Origin: a bacterium
GTDB lineage: Bacteria > Orphanbacterota > Orphanbacteria > Orphanbacterales > Orphanbacteraceae
Length of the DNA: 64,000 nucleotides
Direction of reading: 5' to 3'
NCBI GenBank assembly: GCA_025782575.1
Contig: JALGYY010000004.1
Coordinates: forward strand, 1 to 64,000
Every line of letters starts with the position of its first letter. Position 1 is the stretch's first letter. Both the position numbers and the translations under genes were made by a program. Positions 20,625 through 48,870 of the stretch are shown one piece after another. Below the pieces are notes generated by a model, which was not told the DNA's origin, made no database searches, and was given only the letters and a program-made list of their open reading frames with translations.

Positions 20625-20856
20625 GCGACTCCTCGTGTATATGACTGCAATATACACCGCCCTCATGCCCATGTCAAGCTAAGGGGCCATACCAATGGAC
20701 CCGGCAGCCTGTTGAAGCAGCTGTCGGGGTCATCCCAGGGAATCGGAAATGATATCGCTCGACGTCTTCTATGCAGATTGCGGGACTCACCGCTAAGGGA
20801 TGATATCATTACTCCACCGATGGCTCTCTTACCGAATGGCAGCAGGTAGAACAAGC

Positions 20857-23386: not shown

Positions 23387-24634
23387 TTATTTCGTCTCCC
23401 ACAACGCCCGAACGGGAACGGCGAACAGTCGATCCCCGAACTTTGCAGTGGTCTCCCCATCATAGAGGACAACGCCTCCAGCAAAACGCTTCCCCGCTGC
23501 AGCCCGGAGCTTTCGCAATCCCTTGAAGTCTGCCCCGTTCACGGTCGCACCCGCCTTGACCTCGATGCCGGCCAGGATGCGCGCACCCCTTTCGATCACG
23601 ATGTCCACCTCCACACCATCCCTGTCGCGGAAGTGGAAAAAGCGGTGAGGTTCCTCGTGCCAACTCGCAAGGCGACTCAATTCCTGAAATACGAATGTCT
23701 CGAGAAGCTGCCCCAGAAGAGGCCGGTCAGCGGCGAGACTCCGGGCGTCCACTCCGAGCAGTGCACAGGCGAGGCCGCTGTCACCCAGATGAACCTTGGG
23801 CGTTTTGACAAGGCGGCTCAAGCGGTTGCTGTGCCAGGGGGGCAGCGCATCCAGCAGAAAGACCCGTTGGAGCAGAGTGACATAGCCTCTGATTGTCGGG
23901 CGCGAAACCTGAAATGGCGAGGCAAGGTCCGATACGTTTAGAAGCTGTGCGGTCTGGGCCGCGGCGATCGCGAGGAGCCGAGGCAATACCTCAAGAGAAT
24001 GGATGCGTGCCAGGTCGCGCACATCCCGCTGTATCAGCGTTTCCAGGTAGTCGCGATACCAGTTCATGCGCCTTCGGCCAACTGGTCGGGCCAGAGCGGG
24101 AACGTAGCCTCCCGCGACAATCCGTTCCGTCAGGGCGGTTGCCAGGCGATCGGTCTTTTTGAATTGGAAACCGTTCCCGAACAGGGCGTCGAGAAACACG
24201 CAGGATTTCCGGGCCAATTCACACTGTGCAAAGGGATGCAGCCGCTGAATGTGCATACGCCCCGCCAGGGAGTCGGCGAGTTTAGGCAGAAGCAACACGT
24301 TGGCTGATCCGGTTAGCAGGAAGCGGCCTGGCTCTCGCTCGCGATCGACGGCCACTTTCAAGGCCGCGAAGATAGCGGGCACCTTTTGCACCTCATCCAA
24401 TATGGTCCGCCGCGGCAGGTCCGACACAAAACCGATCGGGTCGATATCCGCTGCGGCCCGGGTCACATCATCGTCGAAGGTAAGATAAGTGTAGCCAAGG
24501 CGGTCTCCGACCATCTTTGCCAGCGTCGTCTTGCCGCATTGTCGCGGGCCGTGGATCAGGACGACCGGTGCATCCACCAGGGCTTCGACCAGTCGAGACT
24601 CTGCGAGACGGGTATAGAGTGTCTTCTCTTTCAT
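23387..24634 (-). CDS. AAA ATPase with DUF4143 domain
   Basis: A 415-residue protein of the AAA_14/DUF4143 family. It has Walker A GPRQCGKT at 29-36, Walker B RTILDEVQKVP around 76-86, sensor LLTGSANVLLLP, and ERIVAGGYVPALARP leading to the DUF4143 part. The C-terminal portion is a restriction-nuclease-like fold (FFHFRDRDGVEVDIVIERG ... GIEVKAGATV), with the D, E-x-K pattern intact. Members are widespread in archaea and bacteria, often near mobile genes, and their role is poorly understood. The start is separated from an array of four 14-bp direct repeats by one base. Confidence 0.88.
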   Translation of the reverse strand: MKEKTLYTRLAESRLVEALVDAPVVLIHGPRQCGKTTLAKMVGDRLGYTYLTFDDDVTRAAADIDPIGFVSDLPRRTILDEVQKVPAIFAALKVAVDREREPGRFLLTGSANVLLLPKLADSLAGRMHIQRLHPFAQCELARKSCVFLDALFGNGFQFKKTDRLATALTERIVAGGYVPALARPVGRRRMNWYRDYLETLIQRDVRDLARIHSLEVLPRLLAIAAAQTAQLLNVSDLASPFQVSRPTIRGYVTLLQRVFLLDALPPWHSNRLSRLVKTPKVHLGDSGLACALLGVDARSLAADRPLLGQLLETFVFQELSRLASWHEEPHRFFHFRDRDGVEVDIVIERGARILAGIEVKAGATVNGADFKGLRKLRAAAGKRFAGGVVLYDGETTAKFGDRLFAVPVRALWETK

Positions 24635-25361: not shown

Positions 25362-26414
25362 CTATCGCTTGCTCGTTCGATCGCGATCCGGCAGATCAGT
25401 CTCAGGCAGAGCCTTGGCGGCATCTTCCAGGTCTCTCTGCTGCGCCCGCTCGGCTTCCGCTTCCAGCAGGGCGCGGCGGCGAGCCGCAAAAGCCTCGTAC
25501 TTCGCCTCGGCCAGTTTGTCGGCTTCTTCTTTGCTGATCTTGCCCTTGTCAGCGAGTACGTCTCGCTCGTTGAATGCCAGAAACTCGTCCAGCCTGGCCG
25601 CCCAGTCATTCAGGAAGACCTGCTTTCGTCGACGGGCCTGATCCTCGGCGAAGTCCAGCCACATCGTCACAATGCGGTTCAGCCCGCTGATCTCCTCCTG
25701 GTTCAGGTAGTTCTTTGCGACCGTGACATCACCCTTTCGGACCACATCACCCTTCCAGGTGGTGAGCCCCATATTGGGACGGCTCTTGTCTGCACGGCCG
25801 GCGATCAGTTCAGCCGCGGTCTTACCGGTCGCTGCAAAGTGAAGCTTGTTCTGGATAGCCTGGAAGAACACCGGCACATTGGGCTGTTTTGAATCGTAGT
25901 CGGCGGCGAGAGCGAAGATTTCGCGTACTCGCAGGTACATGCGCTTCTCGCTGGCGCGAATGTCGCGGATCCGCTCCAGCAGCTCGTCAAAATAGTCGGG
26001 CACGCCGGACCCGGCGACCGGGGGGTTCTTCAGCCGCTCGTCGTCCATGGTGAAGCCCTTCACCAGGTACTCGCGCAGCCGCTCAGTCGCCCAGATACGG
26101 AATTGTGTGCCCCGGGGGGAGCGGACGCGGTAGCCGACGGCCAGGATGGCGTCGAGGTTGTAGTGCATTGTGTCGTACTTCTTTCCGTCCCCGGCAGTTA
26201 TCCGGAATTTCCGGATAACTGAATCCGATGGTAGTTCGCCTTCTTTGTATATGTTCAGCAAATGCTCGTTAATCGTGCGTACGTCCTTTTGAAACAACTC
26301 GGCAATCAGCGCCTGGCTCATCCAGATCGTCTCATCGGCAAATCGACACTCCACTCGGGTCCGGCCATCCGCGGTCTGATAGAGTACGATTTCACCGATA
26401 GGCTCTTCGCTCAT
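25362..26414 (-). CDS. rhuM: RhuM family protein
   Basis: A 350-residue protein matching the virulence RhuM family: IVLYQTADGRTRVECRFADE, TIWMSQALIAELFQKDVRTI with NEHLLNIYKEGE, then KKYDTMHYNLDAILAVGYRV, RSPRGTQFRIWATERLREYL, and the long KLHFAATGKTAAELI...MGLTTWKGD region. The N-terminal part is a DNA-binding-like domain also seen in phage antirepressors. Family members sit in pathogenicity islands, phage-like and defence regions; the molecular role is not established. The C-terminal 60 residues are a charged coiled coil. It overlaps the exonuclease gene by four bases. Confidence 0.88.
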   Translation of the reverse strand: MSEEPIGEIVLYQTADGRTRVECRFADETIWMSQALIAELFQKDVRTINEHLLNIYKEGELPSDSVIRKFRITAGDGKKYDTMHYNLDAILAVGYRVRSPRGTQFRIWATERLREYLVKGFTMDDERLKNPPVAGSGVPDYFDELLERIRDIRASEKRMYLRVREIFALAADYDSKQPNVPVFFQAIQNKLHFAATGKTAAELIAGRADKSRPNMGLTTWKGDVVRKGDVTVAKNYLNQEEISGLNRIVTMWLDFAEDQARRRKQVFLNDWAARLDEFLAFNERDVLADKGKISKEEADKLAEAKYEAFAARRRALLEAEAERAQQRDLEDAAKALPETDLPDRDRTSKR

Positions 26415-33377: not shown

Positions 33378-34067
33378 CTATGCTTCGGCGGCGTACACGC
33401 AACCGCCGCATGTGGGAGAGAGTAGCACGACGATCCGATGCTTGGTCACATCAACATTGAACCGGTCCATCACCGGAAGTGTCGGGTCATCGCGTGAGAA
33501 TGGGCCACCCTGTGTAAAGCCGGCTTGTTCGGTGGTCGTCTTTTGTGTTCCACTTGCGGGGGCACAACATCCGGCGCCCGCACTCGCCCCGCCGGCATTG
33601 CCACTACCGCAGGCAGCAGCAGCATCCGAGGCGCAGCCCTCGGCCGGCGCACACCCTTCAGCGGACTCCACGCTGCATGCCGGCGCGCTCGTTCCCGCCC
33701 AACCGGTTCCACTGATCAGGGCGCCGATATGAGTCGGGAAGAAAGCAAAGGCGATCACCACCGCTGTCGATACCCACAATGTGATTCGGTTGAACCGCGC
33801 CATTTTGGATATTCCAACTGCGCAGCTGGTGTCTGATTCGCACGAGGGTCGACGCCTGTACTCGAGATAGAAGCCGGCGGCGAGAAAGATGACCGCGACA
33901 CCGATGAAAATGAGGTGATACTTCCCGAGAAAGAGAGTCAGGCCAGCGGCGGACATGCCGGTTCCGATAAGCACGGCAGGAAGCCAGCAACAGGCGGACG
34001 AAGCCGCAGCTGAAAGAATGGAACCGGCCGATGCGATGAATCCCGAAAAGCGCGAGGAACCGTTCAT
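33378..34067 (-). CDS. MerT-like transporter fused to a thioredoxin-like domain
   Basis: A 229-residue frame. The N-terminal 110 residues are MerT-like: three hydrophobic segments, the first with the vicinal Cys pair in SSACCWLPAVLIGTG that in MerT receives Hg(II). A low-complexity Cys/Ala/Gly linker (about 128-170) has eight cysteines. A thioredoxin-like domain begins at RIVVLLSPTCGGCVYAAEA, where TAG at 33378-33380 ends translation, and its other half is at 32871-33377. It overlaps the small thioredoxin-like gene upstream by four bases in a merR-led operon. Metal or mercury uptake with thiol relay is inferred. No mercuric reductase is in the window. Confidence 0.75.
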   Translation of the reverse strand: MNGSSRFSGFIASAGSILSAAASSACCWLPAVLIGTGMSAAGLTLFLGKYHLIFIGVAVIFLAAGFYLEYRRRPSCESDTSCAVGISKMARFNRITLWVSTAVVIAFAFFPTHIGALISGTGWAGTSAPACSVESAEGCAPAEGCASDAAAACGSGNAGGASAGAGCCAPASGTQKTTTEQAGFTQGGPFSRDDPTLPVMDRFNVDVTKHRIVVLLSPTCGGCVYAAEA

Positions 34068-34369
34068 CTTGCATCTCCCTGGGTAAGGGCCGCGGCAATC
34101 AGCTCGGCCGAAGGAGTTCCGGTATCACCATACAACCTGCAACTCATTCCGAAATCTTTTCGCCCGGTTGTGTCCGGTTCGATGTCCACCCCATTGACGC
34201 GGATGGTCGGCGAGCCGAGAAAGCGGAGACGAGTGGCCTCTTCCTGGGTGGGGACTTCGACTGATTCGACTTCCACGTCGAGCCTGAGATCCGAGATGAC
34301 CTGGTGGACTGCGTCGAGAGCCGGCTGATAATGCGGGCAACCACCAAAATAGAGAATTTCCAGTTTCAT
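34064..34369 (-). CDS. Small thioredoxin-fold protein of the mer-type operon
   Basis: A 101-residue protein beginning MKLEILYFGGCPHYQPALDA, a thioredoxin-like start with a single reactive Cys in GGCP, followed by VEVESVEVPTQEEATRLRFL and the cis-Pro segment GSPTIRVNGVDIEP, and a late Cys (MSCRLY). Such proteins accompany mercury and arsenic operons. ATG 34369 is chosen because AAGGGAG lies nine bases upstream, whereas the first ATG (34378) would touch it. It lies six bases after merR and overlaps the transporter gene by four. Confidence 0.8.
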   Translation of the reverse strand: MKLEILYFGGCPHYQPALDAVHQVISDLRLDVEVESVEVPTQEEATRLRFLGSPTIRVNGVDIEPDTTGRKDFGMSCRLYGDTGTPSAELIAAALTQGDAR

Positions 34370-34374
34370 GATAA

Positions 34375-34776
34375 TCATCTCCCTTCGAGGGAATCGAGAA
34401 TGGGGCAACAATCCGTCACTTCATTCGCCCCGCACGAGGCGACAAGTTTCGTAAGGACCCGTTTCATGCGGGACAATGTTTTTATTTTCCCCTGAATGTC
34501 TTCGATCTTCGACGTCGCCCGCTCCATCACCTCGCCGCAGGCTGCTTCACTGTCGACGCGGAGCGACAGAAGCTCGGCAATCTCACGAAGGGAGAAGCCG
34601 AGGTCCTTGGCTCTTCGAATGAACTGAATCCGATCCACCACTTCCGGCTCGTATGAGCGATACCCCGACGGACGCCTCGGGGGAGCGGGAATCAGATTTT
34701 CTCTCTCATAGAAACGAATCGTCTCCGTACCGATTTCGGCAAGCTTCGCGACCTGCCCGATAGTCAAGCTGCTCAT
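34375..34776 (-). CDS. merR: MerR-family mercury-type regulator
   Basis: A 133-residue MerR protein with helix-turn-helix LTIGQVAKLAEIGTETIRFY, wing (PPRRPSGYRSYEPE) and a long dimerisation helix. Three cysteines stand where Hg-responsive MerR proteins have them: AACGEV near 82, ASCGAN near 117 and DCCPIL near 126. It distorts its operator to activate the downstream operon on metal binding. The gene order merR, thioredoxin-like, MerT-like on one strand differs from classical divergent mer operons, so the promoter upstream of merR must serve all three. Confidence 0.88.
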   Translation of the reverse strand: MSSLTIGQVAKLAEIGTETIRFYERENLIPAPPRRPSGYRSYEPEVVDRIQFIRRAKDLGFSLREIAELLSLRVDSEAACGEVMERATSKIEDIQGKIKTLSRMKRVLTKLVASCGANEVTDCCPILDSLEGR

Positions 34777-36435: not shown

Positions 36436-39400
36436 TTAGCGGCGGATGCGGAGGTTCGCGTAGTCGACAAAGGGGCTCGTGAACGAGACGGTGAGGCCTT
36501 CGAGTTCGGGACGGCCGATACGGTACATCTGTTCGTGGTAGAGCGGTACCATCAGCGCCTCGCGAGCGATCAATTCCTCGATCTGACGATAGAGCAATTC
36601 CCGGGTAGCGGTATCTGTTTCGAACTGCGCCCGATCGATCAAGTCCTGTAATCCAGGAGCCGTACAAAGTGTTCGACAAATACCGACCCGGGAATCGAGC
36701 AGGCCCTGGATAATTGAATGCGCGTCGGGAAAGTCCGCGTACCAGCCACCGACCAGCATGTCTGTTTCGCCCGTATCATGTGCCCGTTCGTACTCTTCAT
36801 TCGTATTACCGATGATCTCGAGATCGAATCCGAGCTCTGTCAGCACCTCCGAACCCAGATCGAAAAGTTGTGGATGGTTTTTGCGGAAACCGGGATTGGA
36901 AAGCACGCGAAGCGTCCTCCGGTCACCGTCCGGATCGATCGGCTCTTCCGACCGGGGAACCAGGGATGACCAATTCTGCATTGACGAAGGAGCGTGTCCC
37001 AGAAGACCCGGCCCGAATATACCCTTGGCGACCACAATGGATTCGTCCGCTGTCTTTCTGATCGATTCGTGGATTGCCCGTGCAACTTTCCGGCGAAGCT
37101 CGACTGACGAGAAGACACCTGTCTTGTTGTTGAATGCGACGAAATTAACGCCGATACTTGGTGCTTCCCTGTAGCCCCGTCCCAGTTCGGCATCCCGGCG
37201 CAATGCGATCAGGCTTTGATGAGGAAATGAATACCCCAGGCTGCTTCGACCCTCTCGGAAACGGCTTTCCAATTCGTCCACTGGAGTATTGAATTCAAAG
37301 ACGAGCTTTTCACTCTTCGGGAAGCCCTTCCGCCAGTATCCGGGATTTCGTTCCAGCTCCAAAGCGACAGCGGGGTCGTACCGGATTACTCGAAACGCAC
37401 CGGTCCCGACGAGCCCCTCTCTCCAGGTCCTGGCAGATTCGAATTCAATTCCTTCTGGGACGATTGATGTGGCGGCGTTCGTCAGAAGGGCCAGGAAGAA
37501 CGGGCACGGCTCTTCCAGGTCGATCTCGAACTCCCGAGTCGAGAGAATGCGAAATCCCTTGAGGTCATCGGACTCTCCCAGAATGAAATCGCGCGCGCCG
37601 ACAATCATGGAGAGGACCCACTGATTGTCGCTCTCCTTGTCCCTCATGAGGCGCTCGAATGTCGAACGAACATCCCGTGCTGTCAACCGCCGGCCGTCGT
37701 GGAATTCCACATTGTCCCGCAGCCGGAAGGCAAACCGTTTGCCACCATCCATCATTCTTGCTTTTTCAGCGAGGCTTGGTGTGATGCCGGCATCCTGTGT
37801 GGCCCTCATCAGCGTATCGAATATGCCGGAACACAATTCTCCGTCGTCAACAAAGATAACGCGGGCGGGATCCAGGCGGCGGCCATCACCGACAATGCCG
37901 AGACGAATAGTCCCTCGACTGACCGCGCTCACATGAGCGGCCGGCGTCGCATCCCTCTCCGCTTTTCCGACGGACTCATAATTGACATAGGGATAGTTGG
38001 TTCCCAGACGAAGCCCCCTGACCTTCGGACCGGAGATCCGGTACTTGATATCATGATGAAGGGGCAGAATGATCGTTTCGTCTTCGAGGAACGATTCAAA
38101 CTGTCTGTAGGTGGACTCGCGTATTTCGAGCCGGCTCTCGGTACGGGCTTTTGTGAGCAATTCGTCAAGGATTTCCGAGCTATAGAATCGGCGATAGTGA
38201 CCGGACTTTGAGTTCAGCAGGCCATAGGCGATATCATCCGGATCAACGAAGTCGACCACCCATCCGCCGAGTAATACGTCGACACTCCCCGCTGTCACCT
38301 CCGCCGCCTCAGCCGCGGTCTCGGTAGGTGTCACGATTGTCGGTTCCACGCCCAACTCTCTCCAGGTGGCAAACAGGCCGTGAATCAACTGCTTGTGCGT
38401 ATCCTGTGCCATCGGGGAAATGCTGACCTTCAATTCGATCGGAGACGGAAGATTCAGGCTCGCTATCTGATCTCGGGCGTCATCCATGCTCATCGTGGTT
38501 CGGCGCCTGCCTGCGTCGTGACCGAGAAGGCCGGGTGGAATCAGCCCCATGGCCGGCTGACCATAGCGGCCGATCGCCCGCCAGACGAGATCCCGTGTAT
38601 TCACCACTCGCGCGAGCGCCTCCCGCAGCGCTTTGTGTCTCGCCACAGGACCGCTGATGCAATTGAAGAACGCAAAAAAAGTATTTCGGCCGAGCGCTTC
38701 CACAATCCGACCACGAAAGCGGGGGTCCCGCTGAATCGCCTCGAGATCCCCTTCTGTCAGATCTCGCGCAATGTCGATCGCCCCGGTCTCCAGTTGTGAT
38801 TTCCGATCCTTCGCGCTCATGCCGAGCATGAATGTCAACTGATTCACATTGGATGAATCCTGTTGCCAGTACTTATCATTTCGTTCCAATCGAACCTTCT
38901 CACCGTCATGCGCTCTGAAAAGAAATGGTCCTGTACCATAGAGATCGGTTCCGTCTCCATTCTCTTTCGGCACGCGACGCACGATTGCGGTCGCGCTCGC
39001 AGTGAGGAGAACGGGATAAATAGGAAGAGCCTCTTTCAGTTCGATCGAGAGAACGTAGTCCGACTCCAGCTGGATTCCTTCCAGTGAATCCGCTTCCCCG
39101 TCGTATAGAGCCTGCATACCTTTGATCGCTGTAAACGCGGCTGCCGGATCGTCCCGCCTGAAGCGAATCGCCTCTTCGAAGGCTCGCTTGATGTCCTCCG
39201 CCTTCATGTGATGGCCGTCGTGAAAGTGGACATCACGACGAAGGGAGAATACGATTTTCTTGCCCCCCTCGAACACTTCCCACTTCTCGCAGAGAAGGGG
39301 CTGCAGTGTTCCCTGATCGTCAGCATGGAGAAGTGTCTGGTAACTGTTGGCCAGTATTTCAGCCTCCTGGTCAAACGCCATGAGGGCGGGGTCGGTTGCT

Positions 39401-42114
39401 TTTACTGTCGAGCTCATCCCCACTACCAGATGTCCGCCTTTCGGAATCTCTTCGGCAATCGTATCCCGGCGTCCGGTTGAATCGAGCTTTTCGATCTCCT
39501 CCTGCATCAGGTTGGCGCTCTCGTGATTCCCTCGAAGATTCGCGATGGTGCCGGCAAGGATGAGCAATTCCCGCAGAGCATCTTTCTTTTCATGGGCACG
39601 CGCCTCTTCGATTCCCTGCTCGATATGGGCTTCGGCATTCTCCGTTCGTCTCGCCTGCCAGTTACATTGAGCCGCCACCAGAAGCGCATCGATCAGCTTC
39701 TCTTTCTCCTGGTTCTCGCGATACTTATTAACCGCACGCTCCGCCTGCTGAATTGCCGCATCGAGATTTCCTGCCATTCTTTCTGCGCGGGACAGAATAA
39801 GGCGAACATCCCCCTCCACATTCGGATCGCCTTCCCACTCATCGTCAAGAAAATCGAGAACTGTTTTTGCGGTTCGAACGGCCTCGTCCTGGCTGAAGGT
39901 TTCTAGTGACTTTCGGGCAAGCTCCAGTCCGTAAGACACGGTCTTCTCGGGAACGTCACCTTCGGAGTAGTGGTAAACAAGTTCGGGATAGACGTTTTCG
40001 AGCCGGCCGGCGTTTCTCTTTTCCAGGCGGGCGGCATACTTCCGATGGAGACCCCGCCGTTTCCGGCGTGACAGATCGGCGTAGAGAACATCATGCAACA
40101 CACCGCTGCTGAATGTCAGGCGGTCGCCTCGGGAGCGGGCGTCTTCCTCGATAATGCCGATCGAAACGAGTTTATCGACCGCGTCATCGAGATCATCTTC
40201 ATCTGAGGCAAGTGCCTCCAGATCATCGAACTCAAACGTTCTTCCAATGACTGATGCGATCGACAGAACGCGCCGCTGATTCTCAGGCAGAGTGCTCACC
40301 CGCTTCTCGATAACCTGCTGAATCGTCGCCGGAAGATCGCCGGATGAAATGTCATGATCTCCCGAAAGTTCCCAGGATCCCGTGTCATCGGGAGCGATCC
40401 CGCCGGAGTCGAGCAATGACCGGACAAGTTCTTTTGTAAAAAATGGATTTCCCTCGGCCGCATCGTAGAGTTGCTTCGTGAGCTTCTCCCCCACGCCGGG
40501 ACCACCGATCAATGTCTGCAGAAACTGACTGTGCTCGTCGGGCGCGAAAGCCTCGAGCTTGATGGAAGCGATCCTCCGGTCCCCTTCGAATCCTTCGATC
40601 ATTCGATCGAGCGGCCCCCGCTTGACCATTTCCGTGGTGCGATAAGTGCCGATTATCATCGTGGGAGTCGGTCCCAATCTTCTGATGATGTATTGGAGTG
40701 CATCAATCGATCCTTCGGCACCGTGAAGGTCTTCGAGAATCAGCAGAAGAGGTTTGCCCCCCGCCATCCGGGCAAGCACTTTGGCGAGCAGCTCGAATAC
40801 CTGAGTCTGATCCGTTGCGCCGGTCGCGCCGGACACACTGGCTGCATCGACTGAAATGGAACCGCTTGAAGCGGCTCGGAACTGCTCCATCTCGCTCAGC
40901 ATCGGAAACAGAGTGGTCAGCTGGGGAGCGAGATCGGAAAAATCGGGAATCTCGCTCGACGAACTCGCGGACTCTTTCTCCCGAAAATACTCCTGAATCG
41001 CTTCACAGAAACCGTGATAGGGAAATGCGCCGTCCTGTTCAACCAGGCGGCCGTGCAACACGCGAATGCTCCGCGCCCGTGCAAGCTCTTCCAGATGATC
41101 CGCCACGCGGGTCTTCCCGGAACCGGGCTCACCGCCGATCGTCACGAATTGACACTCCCCGCCGATCGCCGAATTGAGGCGTCGCTGAAGCTCAGCCATG
41201 ATCGCTTTTCGTCCGACGAACGGTGAAGCGGCCGGGCCCGGAGCCGTGATGACTCGTGTCGTCAGAATCGACTTGTTGATTTCGCTATCCCGCAACCGGG
41301 TTCGATATTTCCGGAGGCTCGACGCCAGCTCAGAACCGGACTGGGGACGCTGCTTCGGGTCTTTTTCGAGGCAGGACATGAGGATTTGATCGAGTGATTC
41401 GTCAATATCCGCTCCCATCTCCCGAGGAGACTGGGGGAGCTCATGGGCGATGCGATAAAGTATGGATTGAATTTCACCCGAGAACGGCGTTTTGCTCGTC
41501 AGGCACTCATAAAGAACTGTACCAAGTGCATAGATATCGACGCGGTAGTCACATGGCTGCCCCTGTACCAACTCAGGGCTGACATACGCCATGGTTCCCA
41601 TGAGAACTCCTGACCTGGTCATCCGTGTGGCGTTCGTATCCTGGGCCAGACCAAAGTCCATTAGCCGCGCCCGGATCCCTTCGCCATCACTCCGCGTGAT
41701 CATGATATTTTCCGGCTTGATATCGCGGTGCAGAATATTTCGGGAATGGGAATAGTCGAGCGCGGAAGCGATCTGGATCCCCAGGTCCAGCACCTCGCCC
41801 AGCGTCAGCGTATCCGACTGCAATATATGTCGAAGGCTTCGCCCGCTGACGACCGGCATCACATAAAAGAGAGAGTCTCCGTGATGTCCCAGATCGTAAA
41901 TGGGAACAATCGATGGATGATCCATCTGTCCCACGACCTTAGCTTCTGTGAGGAATCTCTGTTCCGCTTCCGGGGAGAGGAGTGCGGGAGGTATGAGCTT
42001 CACCGCGACTTCTCGGTTCAGTGACAGATCGTTGGCGCAATAGACAACGCCCATCCCACCACGACCGAGTTCCGATTTCAGTTCATAGCGATCGGAAAGT
42101 TTCTCGCCGATCAC
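36436..42114 (-). CDS. Kinase / STAND ATPase / tandem oligopeptide-binding fusion protein
   Basis: A 1892-residue protein with no signal peptide or membrane helix, so probably cytosolic. Residues 10-270 are a complete Hanks-type kinase: GRGGMG 18-23, Lys39, HRDIKPEN 129-136, DFG 153-155. Residues 297 to about 640 are an AAA_16/STAND ATPase with Walker A GEPGSGKT 328-335 and Walker B LLLILEDLHG near 460. A helical TPR-like stretch follows to about 880. Two SBP_bac_5-type solute-binding domains make up the rest: about 895-1390 (GHLVVGMSSTVKATDP ... LYGTGPFLFRA) and about 1405-1890 (GTIRLGIVGDGRRLDP ... LVGTGAFRVIRYDP). The start is GTG. I infer a peptide-sensing signalling protein; SgrR is a smaller precedent for a cytosolic SBP domain. 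Confidence 0.9.
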   Translation of the reverse strand: MIGEKLSDRYELKSELGRGGMGVVYCANDLSLNREVAVKLIPPALLSPEAEQRFLTEAKVVGQMDHPSIVPIYDLGHHGDSLFYVMPVVSGRSLRHILQSDTLTLGEVLDLGIQIASALDYSHSRNILHRDIKPENIMITRSDGEGIRARLMDFGLAQDTNATRMTRSGVLMGTMAYVSPELVQGQPCDYRVDIYALGTVLYECLTSKTPFSGEIQSILYRIAHELPQSPREMGADIDESLDQILMSCLEKDPKQRPQSGSELASSLRKYRTRLRDSEINKSILTTRVITAPGPAASPFVGRKAIMAELQRRLNSAIGGECQFVTIGGEPGSGKTRVADHLEELARARSIRVLHGRLVEQDGAFPYHGFCEAIQEYFREKESASSSSEIPDFSDLAPQLTTLFPMLSEMEQFRAASSGSISVDAASVSGATGATDQTQVFELLAKVLARMAGGKPLLLILEDLHGAEGSIDALQYIIRRLGPTPTMIIGTYRTTEMVKRGPLDRMIEGFEGDRRIASIKLEAFAPDEHSQFLQTLIGGPGVGEKLTKQLYDAAEGNPFFTKELVRSLLDSGGIAPDDTGSWELSGDHDISSGDLPATIQQVIEKRVSTLPENQRRVLSIASVIGRTFEFDDLEALASDEDDLDDAVDKLVSIGIIEEDARSRGDRLTFSSGVLHDVLYADLSRRKRRGLHRKYAARLEKRNAGRLENVYPELVYHYSEGDVPEKTVSYGLELARKSLETFSQDEAVRTAKTVLDFLDDEWEGDPNVEGDVRLILSRAERMAGNLDAAIQQAERAVNKYRENQEKEKLIDALLVAAQCNWQARRTENAEAHIEQGIEEARAHEKKDALRELLILAGTIANLRGNHESANLMQEEIEKLDSTGRRDTIAEEIPKGGHLVVGMSSTVKATDPALMAFDQEAEILANSYQTLLHADDQGTLQPLLCEKWEVFEGGKKIVFSLRRDVHFHDGHHMKAEDIKRAFEEAIRFRRDDPAAAFTAIKGMQALYDGEADSLEGIQLESDYVLSIELKEALPIYPVLLTASATAIVRRVPKENGDGTDLYGTGPFLFRAHDGEKVRLERNDKYWQQDSSNVNQLTFMLGMSAKDRKSQLETGAIDIARDLTEGDLEAIQRDPRFRGRIVEALGRNTFFAFFNCISGPVARHKALREALARVVNTRDLVWRAIGRYGQPAMGLIPPGLLGHDAGRRRTTMSMDDARDQIASLNLPSPIELKVSISPMAQDTHKQLIHGLFATWRELGVEPTIVTPTETAAEAAEVTAGSVDVLLGGWVVDFVDPDDIAYGLLNSKSGHYRRFYSSEILDELLTKARTESRLEIRESTYRQFESFLEDETIILPLHHDIKYRISGPKVRGLRLGTNYPYVNYESVGKAERDATPAAHVSAVSRGTIRLGIVGDGRRLDPARVIFVDDGELCSGIFDTLMRATQDAGITPSLAEKARMMDGGKRFAFRLRDNVEFHDGRRLTARDVRSTFERLMRDKESDNQWVLSMIVGARDFILGESDDLKGFRILSTREFEIDLEEPCPFFLALLTNAATSIVPEGIEFESARTWREGLVGTGAFRVIRYDPAVALELERNPGYWRKGFPKSEKLVFEFNTPVDELESRFREGRSSLGYSFPHQSLIALRRDAELGRGYREAPSIGVNFVAFNNKTGVFSSVELRRKVARAIHESIRKTADESIVVAKGIFGPGLLGHAPSSMQNWSSLVPRSEEPIDPDGDRRTLRVLSNPGFRKNHPQLFDLGSEVLTELGFDLEIIGNTNEEYERAHDTGETDMLVGGWYADFPDAHSIIQGLLDSRVGICRTLCTAPGLQDLIDRAQFETDTATRELLYRQIEELIAREALMVPLYHEQMYRIGRPELEGLTVSFTSPFVDYANLRIRR

Positions 42115-42318: not shown

Positions 42319-43578
42319 TCACCCGACCAGATTCACCAAAAACAGGCTGATCGCCGGAATGTAGGTGATGACCATTAACGCGCCGAGCAGAAGCAGTAAA
42401 AACGGCAGGCTTGCCAGATACAATGAGACGACCGGTTCCTTGAATCGATAAGATGATATGAATAGATTGAGGCCGACCGGCGGCGTGATGTATCCGATTT
42501 CCAGATTCGTCAGGAAGATGATTCCGAGATGGACCGGATGAACACCGAAGCCGAGTGCCACCGGTACGATCAGCGGCACCACCACTATCAGAGCGGAGAA
42601 AATATCCATCAGACAACCGACCAGCAGGAGAAAGATATTAAGCAAGAGCAGGAAGGTATACTTGTTGTGAACGTACTGCTGCATCCATTCGAGCAGCAGC
42701 ATGGGCACTTCGGCATCGACCAGGAAATTGGTGAGCCCCAGCGCCGAAGCGAGAATGATCAGGATCCCGCCTACGAGTGTCATGCTCTCCCCCACGATGT
42801 GGGGAATCTGCCGTAGCTTGATGTCCTTGTAGATGAAGACCTCGACGATCAGAACATATCCCGCCGTCAGCGCCGCTGCCTCCATCACCGTGATGATTCC
42901 ACTGTAAATTCCGCCGAGAATGAAAATCGGTAACGGCGCTTCCCAGGCGGCTCCACGAAGAGCCTTGATCGCCGCCCCGGCCGACACTTTTTGACGGACC
43001 ACTCCATCCTTCCGCCCCACCCTGATGCCGTAAGCCGAAAGGACCAGAACCAGAAAGAGACCGGGGAGCAACCCCGCAAGAAAGAGCTCGTCTATACTCA
43101 CCGAAGCGACATACCCGTATAGAATGAGCGGCAGGCTCGGCGGAAAGAGAAGCCCCAGACTCCCGCCGGCAGTCAGGAGACCGAGATTGAAACGACGGTT
43201 GTAACCATCCATCGTGAGTGCCGGTAAGAGCAGTCCCCCCATGGCGATGATCGTCACGCCGCTCGCCCCGGTAAACGCGGTAAAGATCGCGCATGTGGCG
43301 AGAGCAACCACGGCGAGACCGCCGGGAAAGAGCGCCCGCGAAAGATTGACCAATCGCCCGGGCGCTTTGCTGTACGCGAACAGATAGCCCGCAAACGTGA
43401 ATAGTGGAATCGCTACCAGGATCGGCGAACCGGCGAGCGTATACATGGAAACGGCGACCGATGAGATGTCGATATCCGCCTGCCAGAAGAGGACGAGCGC
43501 GATCGTCCCGAGCACGGTAAAGAGGGGCATGCCGAAGAGTGCGAGCGCGATCAGAACAATGATGAGCCCGATTATCAC
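42319..43578 (-). CDS. dctM: TRAP transporter large membrane subunit
   Basis: A 419-residue protein with about twelve hydrophobic segments and the DctM family signatures: LALFGMPLFTVLGTIAL, GSPILVAIPLFTFAGYLFA, ASGVTIIAMGGLLLPAL, TAGGSLGLLFPPSLPLILYG, LVGCLMDIFSALIVVVPLI and IGYITPPVGLNLF. It couples sodium entry to solute import. The start is GTG 43578, overlapping the DctQ stop by four bases (GTGA); the longer open frame upstream is the shadow of dctQ. It is the last gene of the TatT-DctP-DctQ-DctM operon. Confidence 0.92.
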   Translation of the reverse strand: MIIGLIIVLIALALFGMPLFTVLGTIALVLFWQADIDISSVAVSMYTLAGSPILVAIPLFTFAGYLFAYSKAPGRLVNLSRALFPGGLAVVALATCAIFTAFTGASGVTIIAMGGLLLPALTMDGYNRRFNLGLLTAGGSLGLLFPPSLPLILYGYVASVSIDELFLAGLLPGLFLVLVLSAYGIRVGRKDGVVRQKVSAGAAIKALRGAAWEAPLPIFILGGIYSGIITVMEAAALTAGYVLIVEVFIYKDIKLRQIPHIVGESMTLVGGILIILASALGLTNFLVDAEVPMLLLEWMQQYVHNKYTFLLLLNIFLLLVGCLMDIFSALIVVVPLIVPVALGFGVHPVHLGIIFLTNLEIGYITPPVGLNLFISSYRFKEPVVSLYLASLPFLLLLLGALMVITYIPAISLFLVNLVG

Positions 43579-44171
43579 AGCTCGGTCATCTCCAGGCCTT
43601 CTTCCAGTGTTTCCGGTTCCAGTCCGATGAAAAGGTTCACCACACTTCGGTAACTGATCATGAAAAAAGCGACAGGCAATACGAGTTGCAGCGTCCAGAC
43701 CGGTACTGAACCGAATGCCAGATCGCCGTACAATCGCTCGTCCACCACGAGCCGAAGAGCAGCAATGCCCAGCATGAAAGTGGCGAGGGCGGTCGCCCCG
43801 TAAACAAGGGATCGTTGTAAGGGCTTCACTCCATCGGGCAACATACGGGAGAAGATATCGATATTGATGTGGCGGGCGCTGCTCGTCGCGAGGGCCGCAC
43901 CCAGGCAGCCGAGCCAAAGCACGATGTGACGCATGAGCGGATCAGCCCAGAGGACGCCGCCATGAAAGAAGTTCCGGAGTACGATCTGCAATCCACCGAG
44001 CGCGATGAGCGTGCCGAGGAGCAATCCGAGAAAGATGACTTCCAGCCAACCGAGGGCGTTGAACAAACCGTTCAGCATGTTGCGGCGAATCAGAATGGCG
44101 CGGCCGCCGGCGAGGGCGATCAGGGCCACACCGAACAGGTAGTAGATAGTGTTACCTTCGTTCAAGTTCAC
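43575..44171 (-). CDS. dctQ: TRAP transporter small membrane subunit
   Basis: A 198-residue protein with five hydrophobic segments; the extra N-terminal one is followed by the standard four-helix DctQ body (LEVIFLGLLLGTLIALGGLQ, VLRNFFHGGVLWADPLMRHI, LGCLGAALATSSARHINIDI). It supports the DctM channel and the docking of the binding protein. GTG 44171 starts two bases after the DctP stop, so the genes are translationally coupled. Confidence 0.88.
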   Translation of the reverse strand: MNLNEGNTIYYLFGVALIALAGGRAILIRRNMLNGLFNALGWLEVIFLGLLLGTLIALGGLQIVLRNFFHGGVLWADPLMRHIVLWLGCLGAALATSSARHINIDIFSRMLPDGVKPLQRSLVYGATALATFMLGIAALRLVVDERLYGDLAFGSVPVWTLQLVLPVAFFMISYRSVVNLFIGLEPETLEEGLEMTEL

Positions 44172-44173
44172 TT

Positions 44174-45205
44174 CTAATGAGCGGCCCGGTATTCGGCCAG
44201 CAATGTTTTGACCTGTTGTAACAGTTCGGCGCTGTAAATCTTGCCGACGCCGTCATCCCATGCACCCCGCCCCGTTTCGAAAAACTGCTCTCGAACTTTT
44301 TCGCTCAGCTCGATCACCTGCACTTCTTCCTTCTTCATCTCCACAATCGCTTCCCTGTTCTGCACTCGTGTCTGTTCGGTCAGGTCACGCAGAATCGGCG
44401 CCGCTACTTCCTTAAGGATTGCCAGGTCAGCCGGGGATACTTTCCGTAACCCCTTCTTCGAAATGAGGAGCGCTCCCATGCCGTGCGTAATTGGGATATC
44501 GGTCATGTAGGAAACGCGGGTGAACCACTGGAGCGCAATACACCCCAATGGCGAGTTATAGGCTGAGTTGATCACGCCGGTCTGCAATGATGTCAGTACG
44601 TCCGGAGCCGCCAGCGGAATAGGGGAAATGTCGAAAGCCTTGAAGAAGAGCTCCGCCAACGGGTCACCCGCCCACACCCACATGCGGGAGGCGGATAGCT
44701 CCTCCGGTGTGGTGATGGGCTGCTTGCTGAAGACGTAAATAAAGCCCGCATCCACCCAGCCGAGATTCAGGTAGCCCCCGTCATCGAAAGCCTGCTGCAG
44801 CTGATCGTCAATCTTGCCGCGCACAAAGTCGAGTTCATCATGATTCCGATACATGAACGGCATTTCCAATACGCGCACTTCCGAAGCGACCGAACCGAGA
44901 CCGTATCCGGTAAAGCCGCCGCCGTGCAGCTGGCCGTTTCGAATCTTCCGCAAGACATCCTTCTCATCTCCCTGCACACCGCCGGGATAGAACTTGAACC
45001 CCACGCGATTTTCAGTGCGAGCGCGGACCTCGTCGTCCATCTCGTGCATGGAGTTCATCCACGTGCTCCCCTCCGGCGCGAGAGTTGCGATCTTGATCAT
45101 GAAATCCGCCTTCGGTTTTCGGGCGTCGGCCGAACCGGAGGCGGTCATGGTAATCACCAGCCCCAATATCAGAGCGGAGAGACGGATATGTTTAGAATAG
45201 ATCAT
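44174..45205 (-). CDS. dctP: TRAP transporter solute-binding protein
   Basis: A 343-residue periplasmic DctP-type receptor. The signal peptide (about 1-28) precedes IKIATLAPEGSTWMNSMHEM, the typical first strand and helix, then VGFKFYPGGVQGDEKDVLRK, EVRVLEMPFMYRN, GGYLNLGWVDAGFIYVFSK and the ligand-region PLAAPDVLTSLQTGVINSAY. The Arg that clamps carboxylates in most DctP proteins falls in a region here reading SASRMWVWAG; whether it is used is unclear, and partners of TatT often bind hydrophobic ligands. It overlaps the TatT gene by 14 bases. Confidence 0.88.
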   Translation of the reverse strand: MIYSKHIRLSALILGLVITMTASGSADARKPKADFMIKIATLAPEGSTWMNSMHEMDDEVRARTENRVGFKFYPGGVQGDEKDVLRKIRNGQLHGGGFTGYGLGSVASEVRVLEMPFMYRNHDELDFVRGKIDDQLQQAFDDGGYLNLGWVDAGFIYVFSKQPITTPEELSASRMWVWAGDPLAELFFKAFDISPIPLAAPDVLTSLQTGVINSAYNSPLGCIALQWFTRVSYMTDIPITHGMGALLISKKGLRKVSPADLAILKEVAAPILRDLTEQTRVQNREAIVEMKKEEVQVIELSEKVREQFFETGRGAWDDGVGKIYSAELLQQVKTLLAEYRAAH

Positions 45206-46115
45206 CGACTTCTTCCAGTAGTTTGAGTGACTTCTCGGCGGCGATCATGTTCAGCAGTCTGTATGGATCATTCGGAATCGGCTCGGCGTTGATGATCCCT
45301 TCCAGAGTTTCCGTGAACAGATCGACATCCATCATGCGATAAGAGTAGTAACGGGCGTAGAAGTACCGGGAGAGGAGAAATGTGTTTCCGCTGACAGCGA
45401 AGGCTTCCTCGAAATTGGCCGCCGAAGCGTCTACATCGCCCCCCATGATTTTCGGCTTGAACGCATGAAGGGATCCTTGTAACACAAATGGCATCCCTTC
45501 GAAGAAGGCGCCGTCCAGTTCGATCGCCCGATCGAGCAGCGCTTGCACTTTGGAGATGTCCCGTATGACCGAAGTCTGGTCCAGGTGCAGACTGATGTAC
45601 TGTGACCAGCAGATCGCCGCCCACACCGCCGCCGGGACATCGTTCCTGCTCATGGAAGGGACCAGCTTTTCGAATTCTTTGAACGAGATCCCCCGATCCA
45701 TCGTCAATTCGCATGATCGAGACAGTGCGGTCCAGGCGTGGTTCAGTCCCTTGCTGTAGAGGAGCGAGGCGTAGTCCGGATCTTCCTCCTCCATATAGGC
45801 AAACCCATAAAAGAAGTAGAGCATGGCGGCGTTCAGCCGGATATCCTCGTTATCCGGGTCGGTCCGGACCATCCCCTCCAGCAGAAAGAGGTTGGACGGA
45901 ACGGCGTCACGGAAAGTACGGGTATCATCGGACAGAAAAGCCGCCTCCCTCGAGTTCTCGAGCAGCGGCACCATCACATGATCCACCGAATATTTGGTGA
46001 TGGAACAGCCGAACAGGGGCGTCAACAGCAGGGTCAGGCAGAATGCCCGTTGGAAGCGCAAGCTCACCCGACCGAGTCTGTTTGCCACGGAGCGTGACCC
46101 ACCGTTTATCAGCAT
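45192..46115 (-). CDS. TatT-type TRAP T-component lipoprotein
   Basis: A 307-residue lipoprotein with a signal ending LLTPLFGC and the mature body of the TRAP T-component family: MVRTDPDNEDIRLNAAMLYF, FYGFAYMEEEDPDYASLLYS, KGLNHAWTAL, then VPAAVWAAICWSQYISLH and FLLSRYFYARYYSYRMMD. These are TPR-like helical hairpins forming a trimer around a pore in Treponema TatT. In the TatT-TRAP scheme it pairs with the DctP receptor and may bring hydrophobic ligands across from the outer membrane. Start 46115 is the nearest ATG before the signal peptide; the frame is open further upstream without support. Confidence 0.85.
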   Translation of the reverse strand: MLINGGSRSVANRLGRVSLRFQRAFCLTLLLTPLFGCSITKYSVDHVMVPLLENSREAAFLSDDTRTFRDAVPSNLFLLEGMVRTDPDNEDIRLNAAMLYFFYGFAYMEEEDPDYASLLYSKGLNHAWTALSRSCELTMDRGISFKEFEKLVPSMSRNDVPAAVWAAICWSQYISLHLDQTSVIRDISKVQALLDRAIELDGAFFEGMPFVLQGSLHAFKPKIMGGDVDASAANFEEAFAVSGNTFLLSRYFYARYYSYRMMDVDLFTETLEGIINAEPIPNDPYRLLNMIAAEKSLKLLEEVDDLF

Positions 46116-46223
46116 GGCGTTATGGTCATTTCTCTCATTTTCCTGGTTTCCGAGATATTGACAGCGCCATTCTAGCATAGACCTCAGAATCCCACATGCT
46201 GGCCTCTGCTCCCTCCTTCCTCG

Positions 46224-46260
46224 CTGTTTGCTTTCCATTATATTGGTTACGAGGGAGGGG
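46224..46260. repeat. CTTTCCATT repeat, copy 4
   Basis: CTGTTTGCTTTCCATTATAT then TGGTTACGAGGGAGGGG, closest to copy 1 at 3201. It lies in the gene-free 46116-46377. Confidence 0.65.
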
Positions 46261-46320
46261 GCTGTTCTGCCCACGTCGCCTTTCTCTGAAACGATTGGGT
46301 CGCGCGAGGAGTTCCGTCGA

Positions 46321-46373
46321 ATAATAGACCGGTGAGTCACTATCGTTTTGAGAGTCAGGCTTACATAATCCGG
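46321..46373. repeat. GTCAGGTTTACATAATC element, copy 6
   Basis: ATAATAGACCGGTGAGTCAC, a dyad TATCGTTTTGAGA, then GTCAGGCTTACATAATCCGG. It ends five bases before the stop of the kinase gene on the minus strand. Confidence 0.7.
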
Positions 46374-46377
46374 GAGC

Positions 46378-48870
46378 TTATCTCTCCTCGGATTCTGCCC
46401 TGTTTTTCAGTTTCCGGTTCGTATCGCGATAGGGCGCAGCCTCTTCGGCCCGGCCCTGCTTCTCGAGCAGGATCGCGAGGTCCTGTCGGACAGCGACCAC
46501 TTCGGGGTGGTCTGGGGGGAGTGACTTTTCATAAATCGCGAGCGACTGCCGGTAGAGCGGTTCCGCATCAGAATATCGCTCGACCTTCGTCATGATGAAT
46601 GCAAGGTTGTTCAGGCTCAGGGCTATGGACGGATGGTCCGGACCAAGCGACTCTTCCTGAATCATGAGGGCCCGGCGCTGAACAGCCTCGGCGTCGGCGT
46701 ATCGTCCCTGACCGGTCAGGGCGAGTCCGATGTTGTTCAACGTGACGGCGATATCGGGGTGCATCTCGTCGAGAATTTTCTCGCGAATCGCGAGCGATTG
46801 GAGAAAAACCTCCTCCGCCTCTTCGTATCGTTCCTGCACTTTCAGGAACATACCCATGTTATTCAAGCTCAGTGCAAGAAGGGGGGCATCGGGATCGAGG
46901 AGGCGCCGGCGAATTTCGAGGGCACGCTCAAACAGGGGCTCAGCCTCCTCCAATCTCCCCTGCGAACCGAAGAAGACACCCATGGCGTCCGAGTATTCCG
47001 CAATCCTCAGCTCATCCGGATCGCTCGAGCTTTCTGTGATCTGCATTCCACGGGAGAGAAGAGCCTCCGCCTTTGCCGGTTCTCCCAGACTCCAGTGGAG
47101 GGCGCCCAGACCGTGCAGCGCTTCCGCCACCTGAGGATCATCCGGTCCGAGTTCCTCCTCGAGAATCGCAAGCGCCCGCCCGAAAAGCGGCATTGCCGCC
47201 ATCGGCTCTCCGGTCTGATAGAACAGGTTTCCGAGTAGTTTGAGATTCAGCACCACGTTCGGATCGTTTTCACCATAAAGCGCTTCTTTCATTTCGAGCG
47301 CTTCTTCCAGCAGGGGCCTTGCTTCGTCGTACAGTCCGAGATTCATGTACGTGCCCCCCATTGTACCCATCATCTCCGCCTGGACTTCCGGCTGGTCGGC
47401 CAACTCCATTGCAATGCGCGCCGCTCCATCGTCGAGAATCTCCCGCGCGGTAATCGCGTTTCCACGCGCCACTCCCGGATCGGAAACTTCGAACAGACCC
47501 GTCATGAACTCCGAAACCTGCTTCGCCGTCTCCCCCTCCTTCGCGGCAAGCCTCTCAGCATGGACGGCCCGCGCATAGAGGACGCTCATCCATGCTCCGA
47601 ACCCAACAAGGAGTACGACCACGGAAACAGCAAACCCAAAAGCCAGTTTGTTTCGCTGCACCACTTTTCTGAGCTGATAAACCGTGCTCGGAGGCCGCGC
47701 GAGGATCGGCTGGTTCACCAGGTAACGCGCGAGGTCACCGCCGAAAGCGGCGGCGCTCTGGTAGCGACGGGTCCTGTCTTTTTCCAACGCCTTCTGCACG
47801 ATCGAGTCGAGGTCACCTTTGAGACGGCGCTGAAGTTTTTGCGGGTCGGTTCGCCGCGCCTCCGCCACCTGAGCTGCACGGTCGCCGAGCCGCGTAATGA
47901 TCGTGCTTAACCGCGGCGGCTTTTCCTCCTGGATGACTCTCTGAATCCCGGCGAGTCCTACTTTTCGGAGGTCTTTCGATTCGAAAGGAAGCATGCCGGA
48001 GAGAAGCTCATAGAGAATGATACCAAGCCCATAGATATCCGACCGCGTATCGATGTCAAGACCACCCATCGATGCCTGCTCGGGGCTCATATACTCCGGC
48101 GTTCCGATGAGCTGGCCCTGTTCGGTAAAAAGCGTCTGCTCGGTCAGCGCCGCGCCTGTCGCTTTCGCGATGCCGAAATCGATCACCTTCGGAATCGGCT
48201 GGTCGTCCGCCGTTGCCACGAGGATATTGGAAGGCTTCAGATCGCGATGAATGATCCCCTTCTGATGAGCGTGCTGCACGGCCTGGCAGACGTGGCTGAA
48301 GAGTTCGAGACGATCGCGCAGGCCGAGGGAATTCCGGTCGCAATAGTCGGTGATCGGCTCTCCCTGCACGTACTCCATGACAAAGAACGGCCGGCCCTGC
48401 TCCGTCGCGCCCGCGTCAAGCACTTTGGCGATATTCGGATGATCCATCAGGGCAAGGGCCTGTCGCTCGGAGTCAAAACGGGCGAGCACCTCCCGCGTGT
48501 CCATGCCGAGCTTGACCAGCTTAAGCGCCACCCGCCGCTTGATCGGCCTGGTCTGCTCCGCGCGGTAGACAACGCCCATGCCCCCCTCGCCGATTGCTTC
48601 GATGAGGCGATAGGGACCGATCCGCTTGTCGTCGCGCTCGGCCTGTTCGGCGGTTATTGTCGGGATGTCGTCGTCCGATAGTGGGTCCGCGCCGGAGGTC
48701 TTGATCGTGTGGGGGTCTCTATGACGCTCGCGGAGCATCGCCTCTACATCGGCGCGGAGAGCGGCGTCCCCCGCGCATCTTTCATCGAGATAGGAAGCGA
48801 GGCGGTCGTCCTGCAGATCAGCTGCTTTGAAAATTATTTCACTGATGCGGGCGAGGCGACCCTGGTCCAT
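46378..48870 (-). CDS. Transmembrane Ser/Thr kinase with TPR array
   Basis: An 830-residue protein. Residues 1-75 are a helical region often seen ahead of such kinases (LARISEIIFKAADLQDDRLA). The kinase domain (about 86-370) is complete: GEGGMG 94-99, Lys117, HRDLKPSN near 209 and DFGIAKATG. A single membrane helix (FGFAVSVVVLLVGFGAWMSV, about 420-440) is followed by at least seven TPR units of the 42-residue kinesin-light-chain/TPR_10 type (such as LSLNNMGMFLKVQERYEEAE). The kinase is inside and the TPR array probably outside the inner membrane, so external protein binding may control phosphorylation. Its targets are not visible. Confidence 0.92.
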   Translation of the reverse strand: MDQGRLARISEIIFKAADLQDDRLASYLDERCAGDAALRADVEAMLRERHRDPHTIKTSGADPLSDDDIPTITAEQAERDDKRIGPYRLIEAIGEGGMGVVYRAEQTRPIKRRVALKLVKLGMDTREVLARFDSERQALALMDHPNIAKVLDAGATEQGRPFFVMEYVQGEPITDYCDRNSLGLRDRLELFSHVCQAVQHAHQKGIIHRDLKPSNILVATADDQPIPKVIDFGIAKATGAALTEQTLFTEQGQLIGTPEYMSPEQASMGGLDIDTRSDIYGLGIILYELLSGMLPFESKDLRKVGLAGIQRVIQEEKPPRLSTIITRLGDRAAQVAEARRTDPQKLQRRLKGDLDSIVQKALEKDRTRRYQSAAAFGGDLARYLVNQPILARPPSTVYQLRKVVQRNKLAFGFAVSVVVLLVGFGAWMSVLYARAVHAERLAAKEGETAKQVSEFMTGLFEVSDPGVARGNAITAREILDDGAARIAMELADQPEVQAEMMGTMGGTYMNLGLYDEARPLLEEALEMKEALYGENDPNVVLNLKLLGNLFYQTGEPMAAMPLFGRALAILEEELGPDDPQVAEALHGLGALHWSLGEPAKAEALLSRGMQITESSSDPDELRIAEYSDAMGVFFGSQGRLEEAEPLFERALEIRRRLLDPDAPLLALSLNNMGMFLKVQERYEEAEEVFLQSLAIREKILDEMHPDIAVTLNNIGLALTGQGRYADAEAVQRRALMIQEESLGPDHPSIALSLNNLAFIMTKVERYSDAEPLYRQSLAIYEKSLPPDHPEVVAVRQDLAILLEKQGRAEEAAPYRDTNRKLKNRAESEER

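Follow-up and report, generated by a model that had tools for sequence, protein, structure and literature searches.

To our knowledge, solute-binding domains are almost always placed outside the cytoplasm, and bacterial sensors known to detect peptides inside the cell are few. Pfam domains of the solute-binding protein (SBP) type do occur as sensor domains of both cytosolic and membrane signalling proteins, according to one report (PMC9602780). A precedent for intracellular use is provided by the regulators SgrR and DsvR, transcription factors in which a helix-turn-helix (HTH) part is followed by a cytosolic SBP_bac_5 sensor; glutamate is reported as a ligand of SgrR, and DsvR is expected to respond to a sugar-like inducer (PMC13060122). 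A second related system, PknG-GlnX-GlnH of actinobacteria, forms a signalling chain of kinase, TPRs and SBP in which a Hanks kinase with TPRs is controlled by an amino-acid-binding SBP (PMC8546545). Here the chain is divided across the membrane among three proteins, with an external lipoprotein as its SBP and no STAND ATPase.

Further relatives are found among the STAND proteins and the large Hanks kinases. STAND proteins are held in a closed, nucleotide-bound form until their sensor is engaged, and then self-associate. In MalT, the TPRs bind sugar and a C-terminal DNA-binding domain provides the output. HstK-type kinase-AAA proteins join a Hanks kinase to a similar AAA/TPR block, with a C-terminus of GAF and histidine kinase parts, not a pair of SBPs, and the TOMM kinase/cyclase family (TIGR03903) likewise combines a Hanks kinase with such a block. 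Finally, in Acidobacteriota a related SBP domain stands behind a cytosolic signalling domain in fusions of MCPsignal with SBP_bac_5, which have a chemoreceptor-type output, one SBP and mostly an N-terminal hydrophobic segment.

In this work, we describe a gene that brings these parts together in one chain. It lies in a stretch of 64,000 nucleotides, hereafter the window, and encodes a protein with a kinase, a STAND-type ATPase, a TPR array and two SBP_bac_5 domains, which we refer to as the giant kinase. Like 6mfv and MalT, it has a TPR superhelix behind its ATPase core, but it differs from them in its N-terminal kinase output and in the separate SBPs after the TPRs. Residues 295-775 resemble TIGR03903 at 274.7 bits, below the NCBIfam cut-off of 705.75, and the C-terminus is the SBP pair, not a cyclase. 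In contrast to SgrR and DsvR, whose output is DNA binding and which have one SBP and no ATPase or kinase, the giant kinase contains no HTH family recognized by Pfam and begins with the kinase. A literature search, with most subscription journals outside it, found no paper describing kinase-STAND-SBP_bac_5 proteins, in agreement with what an earlier note on this DNA had claimed for the domain order, while cytosolic SBP_bac_5 sensors as such are known from SgrR and DsvR; domain databases may list the architecture. The family is a new order of known parts among the STAND-kinase signalling proteins.

Architecture and location of the giant kinase

The gene and its domains are as follows.

36436..42114, minus strand: whole gene, Pkinase-STAND-TPR-SBP5-SBP5, 1892 aa (GTG start; stop included)
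41341..42087, minus strand: Hanks-type Ser/Thr kinase domain, residues 10-258 (Pfam; family alignment)
40105..41247, minus strand: STAND-type ATPase core (AAA_16 298-488 with helical and winged-helix parts), residues about 290-670 (Pfam; AlphaFold2 model; structure matches)
41110..41133, minus strand: Walker A, residues 328-335, GEPGSGKT (family alignment)
39448..40104, minus strand: TPR helical array, residues about 671-889 (AlphaFold2 model; TPR structure matches)
37939..39438, minus strand: first SBP_bac_5 domain (K1), residues 893-1392 (Pfam; family profile; tree)
36439..37926, minus strand: second SBP_bac_5 domain (K2), residues 1397-1892 (Pfam; family profile; tree)

The open reading frame of 1892 codons has no internal stop. 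Since the frame extends for just 9 more codons upstream of the GTG (open frame of 1901), and since most relatives share a short MIG...Y lead with the kinase immediately after it, the GTG start is taken to be right. Pfam assigns Pkinase to residues 10-258 (1e-51), AAA_16 to 298-488 (8e-19) and SBP_bac_5 to two stretches (5.5e-95 protein-wide).

No membrane helix was detected by a hydropathy scan, in which the highest 19-residue Kyte-Doolittle mean was 1.47, and none of the 36 family rows reaches a mean of 1.9 (36/36). From hydropathy and the position of the kinase at the N-terminus, neither a signal peptide nor a lipobox was found, and thus none of the export features by which a transport SBP is recognized. 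Because a membrane helix is absent and only a short lead precedes the kinase, the giant kinase is soluble and cytosolic, as far as the sequence tells, and its SBP domains, having no export signal, must see internal ligands.

These results bear on much of what the earlier note had read from the letters. The single chain of 1892 residues with kinase, STAND ATPase, TPR and two complete SBP_bac_5 domains is borne out by Pfam, the profiles and an AlphaFold2 model, and the domain search that the note had proposed gave the Pfam boundaries listed above. Its view that the protein lacks a signal peptide agrees with the clean hydropathy scan and with the kinase starting directly after the lead, and its view that the binding domains see internal ligands follows from the missing export signal. 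The architecture survey it had called for returned 29 further intact one-frame proteins in Acidobacteriota and Planctomycetota. With these relatives in identical order and a single open frame in the window, a frameshift join of two separate proteins, which the note had named as a refutation, is out; the signal peptide that it had named as the other refutation did not turn up in the hydropathy scan.

The kinase and the STAND-type core

The window kinase has the Hanks fold together with the catalytic Lys (in VAVK), HRD (129-131) and DFG (153-155). In the 27 rows inspected (Planctomycetota rows left out), the catalytic Lys and HRD are present throughout and DFG in 26, with DYG in L175. One related open frame, L169, is without the kinase. 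An acidobacterial relative, the 2142-residue frame at L164:2548-8973 (minus strand), has two kinase stretches (13-281 and 285-552) ahead of the ATPase.

Walker A and Walker B of a P-loop NTPase are both present in the window protein, and Walker A is kept in all 27 rows displayed (Planctomycetota rows left out). The order typical of STAND proteins, from NTPase to winged helix to superstructure-forming repeats, is predicted by an AlphaFold2 model of residues 290-890 (8 sequences; pLDDT 82.2, pTM 0.67), with the arrangement of the domains unsure. After the ATPase part, the model has about 13 regular helices that match TPR structures, in a region with no Pfam match. Foldseek ranks 6mfv first for this model (E 5.4e-12), an entry whose title names a STAND protein carrying tetratricopeptide repeats, and next come CED-4, Apaf-1, 8bob from the maltose system and plant NLRs; the global TM-score against 6mfv is low, at 0.27, which leaves the domain arrangement unsure. 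By VIA-align, which here mostly probes model residues 310-596, the plant NLR RPP1 was aligned across 342 residues (Z 16.4, 5.3 A), and the C-terminal part of the model matches many TPR structures.

Two solute-binding domains from one old duplication

Profiles built for the first and the second SBP domain (26 rows each, from 27 available, with L154 left out) give near full-length matches to solved OppA-type proteins (E 1.9e-58 and 2.1e-73, respectively), by which both window domains belong to SBP_bac_5. The best matches of both are peptide binders, including oligopeptide- and murein-peptide-binding proteins, and both profiles also match NikA and heme- and agrocinopine-binding proteins. AlphaFold2 on the second domain (3 sequences) reached a pLDDT of 40.6, and this model was set aside.

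Identity between the two domains averages about 31%. A tree of 94 SBP domains, restricted to matches with more than 380 aligned SBP residues, places the 27 first domains in one clade and the 27 second domains in another, and the two clades are sisters (SH-aLRT 100 each). Here and in the whole-protein tree described below, the searches were quick and support is by SH-aLRT only; L176, SgrR and NikA sit on long branches, and their placement is unsure. As each set of domains is one clade and the two are sisters, the pair is, judging from the tree, the product of one old tandem duplication that is older than the spread of the family and has been kept since.

Whether the domains still bind small ligands has to be considered here, as they may have become protein-docking modules or an inert scaffold for the kinase. 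This reading, for which no ligand being known would speak, along with the relative L176, in which only the second domain is present and the first has been lost, is to be judged against the selection on both domains. For three pairs of close acidobacterial relatives with usable dS in all four regions (L151-L152, L151-L154 and L152-L154), dN/dS is 0.05-0.09 in the kinase and ATPase/TPR parts and 0.06-0.13 in the two SBP domains (10 pairs were computed, of which the 7 with saturated dS in at least one region are not quoted), which argues against decay; by this measure both SBP domains are under purifying selection. Both are also full-length, show many invariant columns in the 26 rows of each profile and have been retained in tandem since the old duplication. 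We thus regard the docking or scaffold reading as distinctly unlikely, even with the loss of a ligand-contacting Asp in some members (see below).

The MCP-type SBP domains included in the same tree are not one clade, so that a single origin of cytosolic SBP_bac_5 is unsupported. The proteins that carry them are found in Acidobacteriota, are about 1040-1220 residues long and have MCPsignal followed by one C-terminal SBP_bac_5 (6/6 Pfam-scanned): L177:6482-9691, L178:7118-10525, L180:6471-9587, L184:2816-6160, L185:6689-9874 and L186:6251-9898. Similar frames are present in L105-L109 and L138-L150. Most have hydrophobic N-terminal segments, with none in L180, and they would be chemoreceptors whose SBP is seemingly cytosolic. 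No paper pairing SBP_bac_5 with MCPsignal was found in the literature search, again with most subscription journals outside it.

Clues to the ligand

In OppA, one Asp (Asp445 in Escherichia coli, Asp419 in Salmonella) bonds the amine of the peptide N-terminus (PMC5736914), and a docking and dynamics study treats this contact as a salt bridge (PMC6305025). Its equivalents in the window protein are the following.

38251..38253, minus strand: Asp1288, first SBP domain, equivalent of OppA Asp445 (E. coli) / Asp419 (Salmonella) (alignment; PMC5736914)
36733..36735, minus strand: Asp1794, second SBP domain, same OppA-Asp position (alignment)

Residue 445 of E. coli OppA was checked to be the aligned D in this comparison. 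Among 27 first and 27 second domains (Acidobacteriota and the window, with the Planctomycetota rows and L212 not included), the position is D in 22 and 23, respectively; it is thus missing from five first domains, two of which have E, and from four second domains. It is D in OppA and DppA, P in NikA and, as a further difference from the giant kinase, N in SgrR. All 18 MCP-fused SBP domains have D, as do 8 of 18 stand-alone rows; among these eight, L108 and L110 group with the MCP-type, and L108 is an MCP fusion cut by its contig.

The OppA residues that touch the rest of the peptide (e.g., R413, R404, Y109) are not kept in the giant-kinase family. SBP_bac_5 peptide binders hold the peptide largely via its backbone, so this loss may be expected, but it may be expected of a changed ligand as well. 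Some contact positions also differ between the two domains: position 161 is D in 20/27 first domains and Y in 10/27 second domains, and 109 differs too.

Most members retain the Asp that holds the amine, which favours a ligand carrying a free amino group; a short peptide, as the simplest molecule of this kind, is our leading guess. The remaining contacts known from OppA are not conserved, and several of them are unlike in K1 and K2, so that the two domains need not share a ligand, nor need their ligands be oligopeptides. The same layout of sensor and kinase could also serve a non-peptide ligand, such as an amino acid, a sugar, a metal chelate or an opine-like compound, as in NikA, AccA and SgrR. 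SBP_bac_5 members bind many ligands, as the profile matches to NikA and to the heme- and agrocinopine-binding proteins illustrate, the glutamate and the expected sugar-like inducer of SgrR and DsvR (PMC13060122) are of this kind, and the contacts to the peptide body are gone. However, the amine-holding Asp, absent from NikA and SgrR, is present in most members, and the best solved relatives are mostly oligopeptide or murein-peptide binders, so that we consider a non-peptide ligand rather doubtful.

The suggestion of the earlier note that the ligands would be internal "peptides or sugars" therefore holds better on its peptide side, as the amine-holding Asp favours a free amino group. Its description of two different binding domains is right in that the contact positions differ, but the domains are paralogues of one tandem duplication. 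Less can be said for the ligand-ratio sensor that it had proposed, in which each domain would recognize a ligand of its own and the two would act on the kinase in opposite ways. The domains did diverge before the family spread, and ligand-contact positions such as 161 and 109 differ; beyond these differing pockets there is nothing positive, opposite effects have left no sign, cooperative binding, an AND gate or one merely structural copy would fit equally, and L176 has only the second domain. We hold a ratio sensor to be highly unlikely.

Distribution and genomic context

Thirty proteins combine the kinase, the ATPase and a pair of SBP domains in a single frame: that of the window, 23 from Acidobacteriota and six from Planctomycetota. 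Six more are cut or deviant and were set aside: L013 and L174 run into a contig end, L181 has its kinase on a different contig, the locus of L212 breaks off ahead of the kinase, L169 lacks a kinase in frame and L176 has a single SBP. Of these, L013 from Pyrinomonadaceae was among the first relatives, with 53% identity over the first 1200 residues and a first SBP domain that ends at the contig edge. Whole-genome searches with the SBP half, in which the best 2-6 candidates per genome were scored and the counts are hence lower bounds, found long fused proteins in at least 6/119 Pyrinomonadaceae genomes, at least 16/396 Acidobacteriota genomes and at least 5/294 Planctomycetota genomes (the phylum of a Gemmataceae MAG). 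At least one of 235 genomes from the phylum of a "Deltaproteobacteria" MAG has a 2020-residue frame, seen from its SBP part, with the kinase part not read. Among the best 2-6 candidates per genome, no long fused protein appeared in 249 genomes from the phylum of a Gemmatimonadota MAG, and in a 386-genome sample centred on the window genome it was found only there. Two proteins with both SBP domains occur in one genome in six acidobacterial cases (G168, G188, G368, G393, G476, G507), and the second family protein of G491 has one SBP. The family, apparently undescribed, is scattered and, by these sequence searches, spread over several phyla.

A tree of 36 whole-protein rows makes acidobacterial L174 the sister of the window protein (98), inside a group in which acidobacterial proteins are mixed with two from Planctomycetota. 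As the window protein is nested among acidobacterial proteins and the gene is absent from all six other genomes examined of its phylum, the window copy was probably gained horizontally, with Acidobacteriota as the simplest source.

The same two observations would also suit an assembly artefact, in which separate genes were fused in error or contaminating DNA was included. An error of fusion is refuted by the 29 other proteins with identical order in one frame, and contamination is unlikely because the gene lies inside a 231,768-base contig, the listed contamination of the genome is 0.28% and the GC matches (0.561 against 0.571 for the window); altogether, an artefact is extremely improbable. 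For the flanking RNA methyltransferase, the best full-length matches have about 30-37% identity and come from other families. Phylum-mates are no closer: identity is 31-34% along almost the entire protein in G003, G005 and G006, the matches in G001 and G002 are partial, and G004 has none.

Clustering of flanking open reading frames across 29 loci revealed no conserved neighbour that could be an operon partner, with one cluster in six loci (its L013 member is another kinase) and none in more than six; the Pfam scan of neighbours covered those of the window only. The gene follows a TRAP operon of the same strand at a distance of 204 bases, with a weak terminator-like site between them (consensus scan only). 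A separate membrane protein and an external SBP beside the kinase gene, as in the PknG type, are thus lacking: the SBPs are on the kinase chain itself, neighbours are not conserved and the TRAP operon adjoins. This operon (42319-48870, minus strand), directly upstream of the giant kinase, contains the TRAP genes DctM, DctQ and DctP and a TAtT component, which follow a TPR-bearing Ser/Thr kinase of 830 aa.

Elsewhere in the window, a MerR-family regulator and a MerT-like transporter (33378-34776, minus strand) are possibly a metal-resistance cluster. A protein with an AEP-TOTE primase domain and a ResIII helicase (20800-23322, plus strand) is a component of a TOTE conflict system, near which RhuM (25362-26414) and an AAA_14/DUF4143 protein (23387-24634) are encoded. 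Used as a query against the window genome (G000), the giant kinase matches 36 places, almost all of them through its kinase domain; for the SBP part, a single place besides the gene itself reaches an E of 0.001 or better. This genome thus has many Hanks kinases and few SBP_bac_5 proteins close to the query.

A proposed ligand-gated kinase of the cytosol

The reading that we find reasonably probable is that of a cytosolic one-component ligand sensor, a ligand-gated STAND kinase that likely senses short peptides or similar amines. The C-terminal pair of OppA-type clamshells would bind and close on a small intracellular ligand, most likely a short peptide or another molecule with a free amine, and the TPR array would relay this binding to the STAND ATPase, which would then leave its closed state, open up and self-associate. 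Hanks kinases are commonly activated when brought together; self-association would gather the N-terminal kinases, which would be activated by trans-autophosphorylation and then phosphorylate cell proteins as the output. Ligand binding, the kind of ligand, the STAND-type relay and the kinase output are the steps that we infer in this explanation. A possible, more tentative extension is that such proteins are NLR-like receptors by which bacteria monitor their own peptide pool: the cytosolic OppA-type pair would read imported, murein-derived or proteolysis peptides, perhaps two ligands at once, and pass the signal via the STAND ATPase to the Hanks kinase.

If the ligand-gated kinase is real, the family would offer a compact receptor whose ligand could be sought by screening the C-terminal half alone in ordinary binding assays, and a testable case in which phosphorylation is driven by an NLR-like switch. 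Its patchy occurrence in Acidobacteriota and Planctomycetota, sometimes with two copies per genome, suggests a design that is in use and is passed between phyla.
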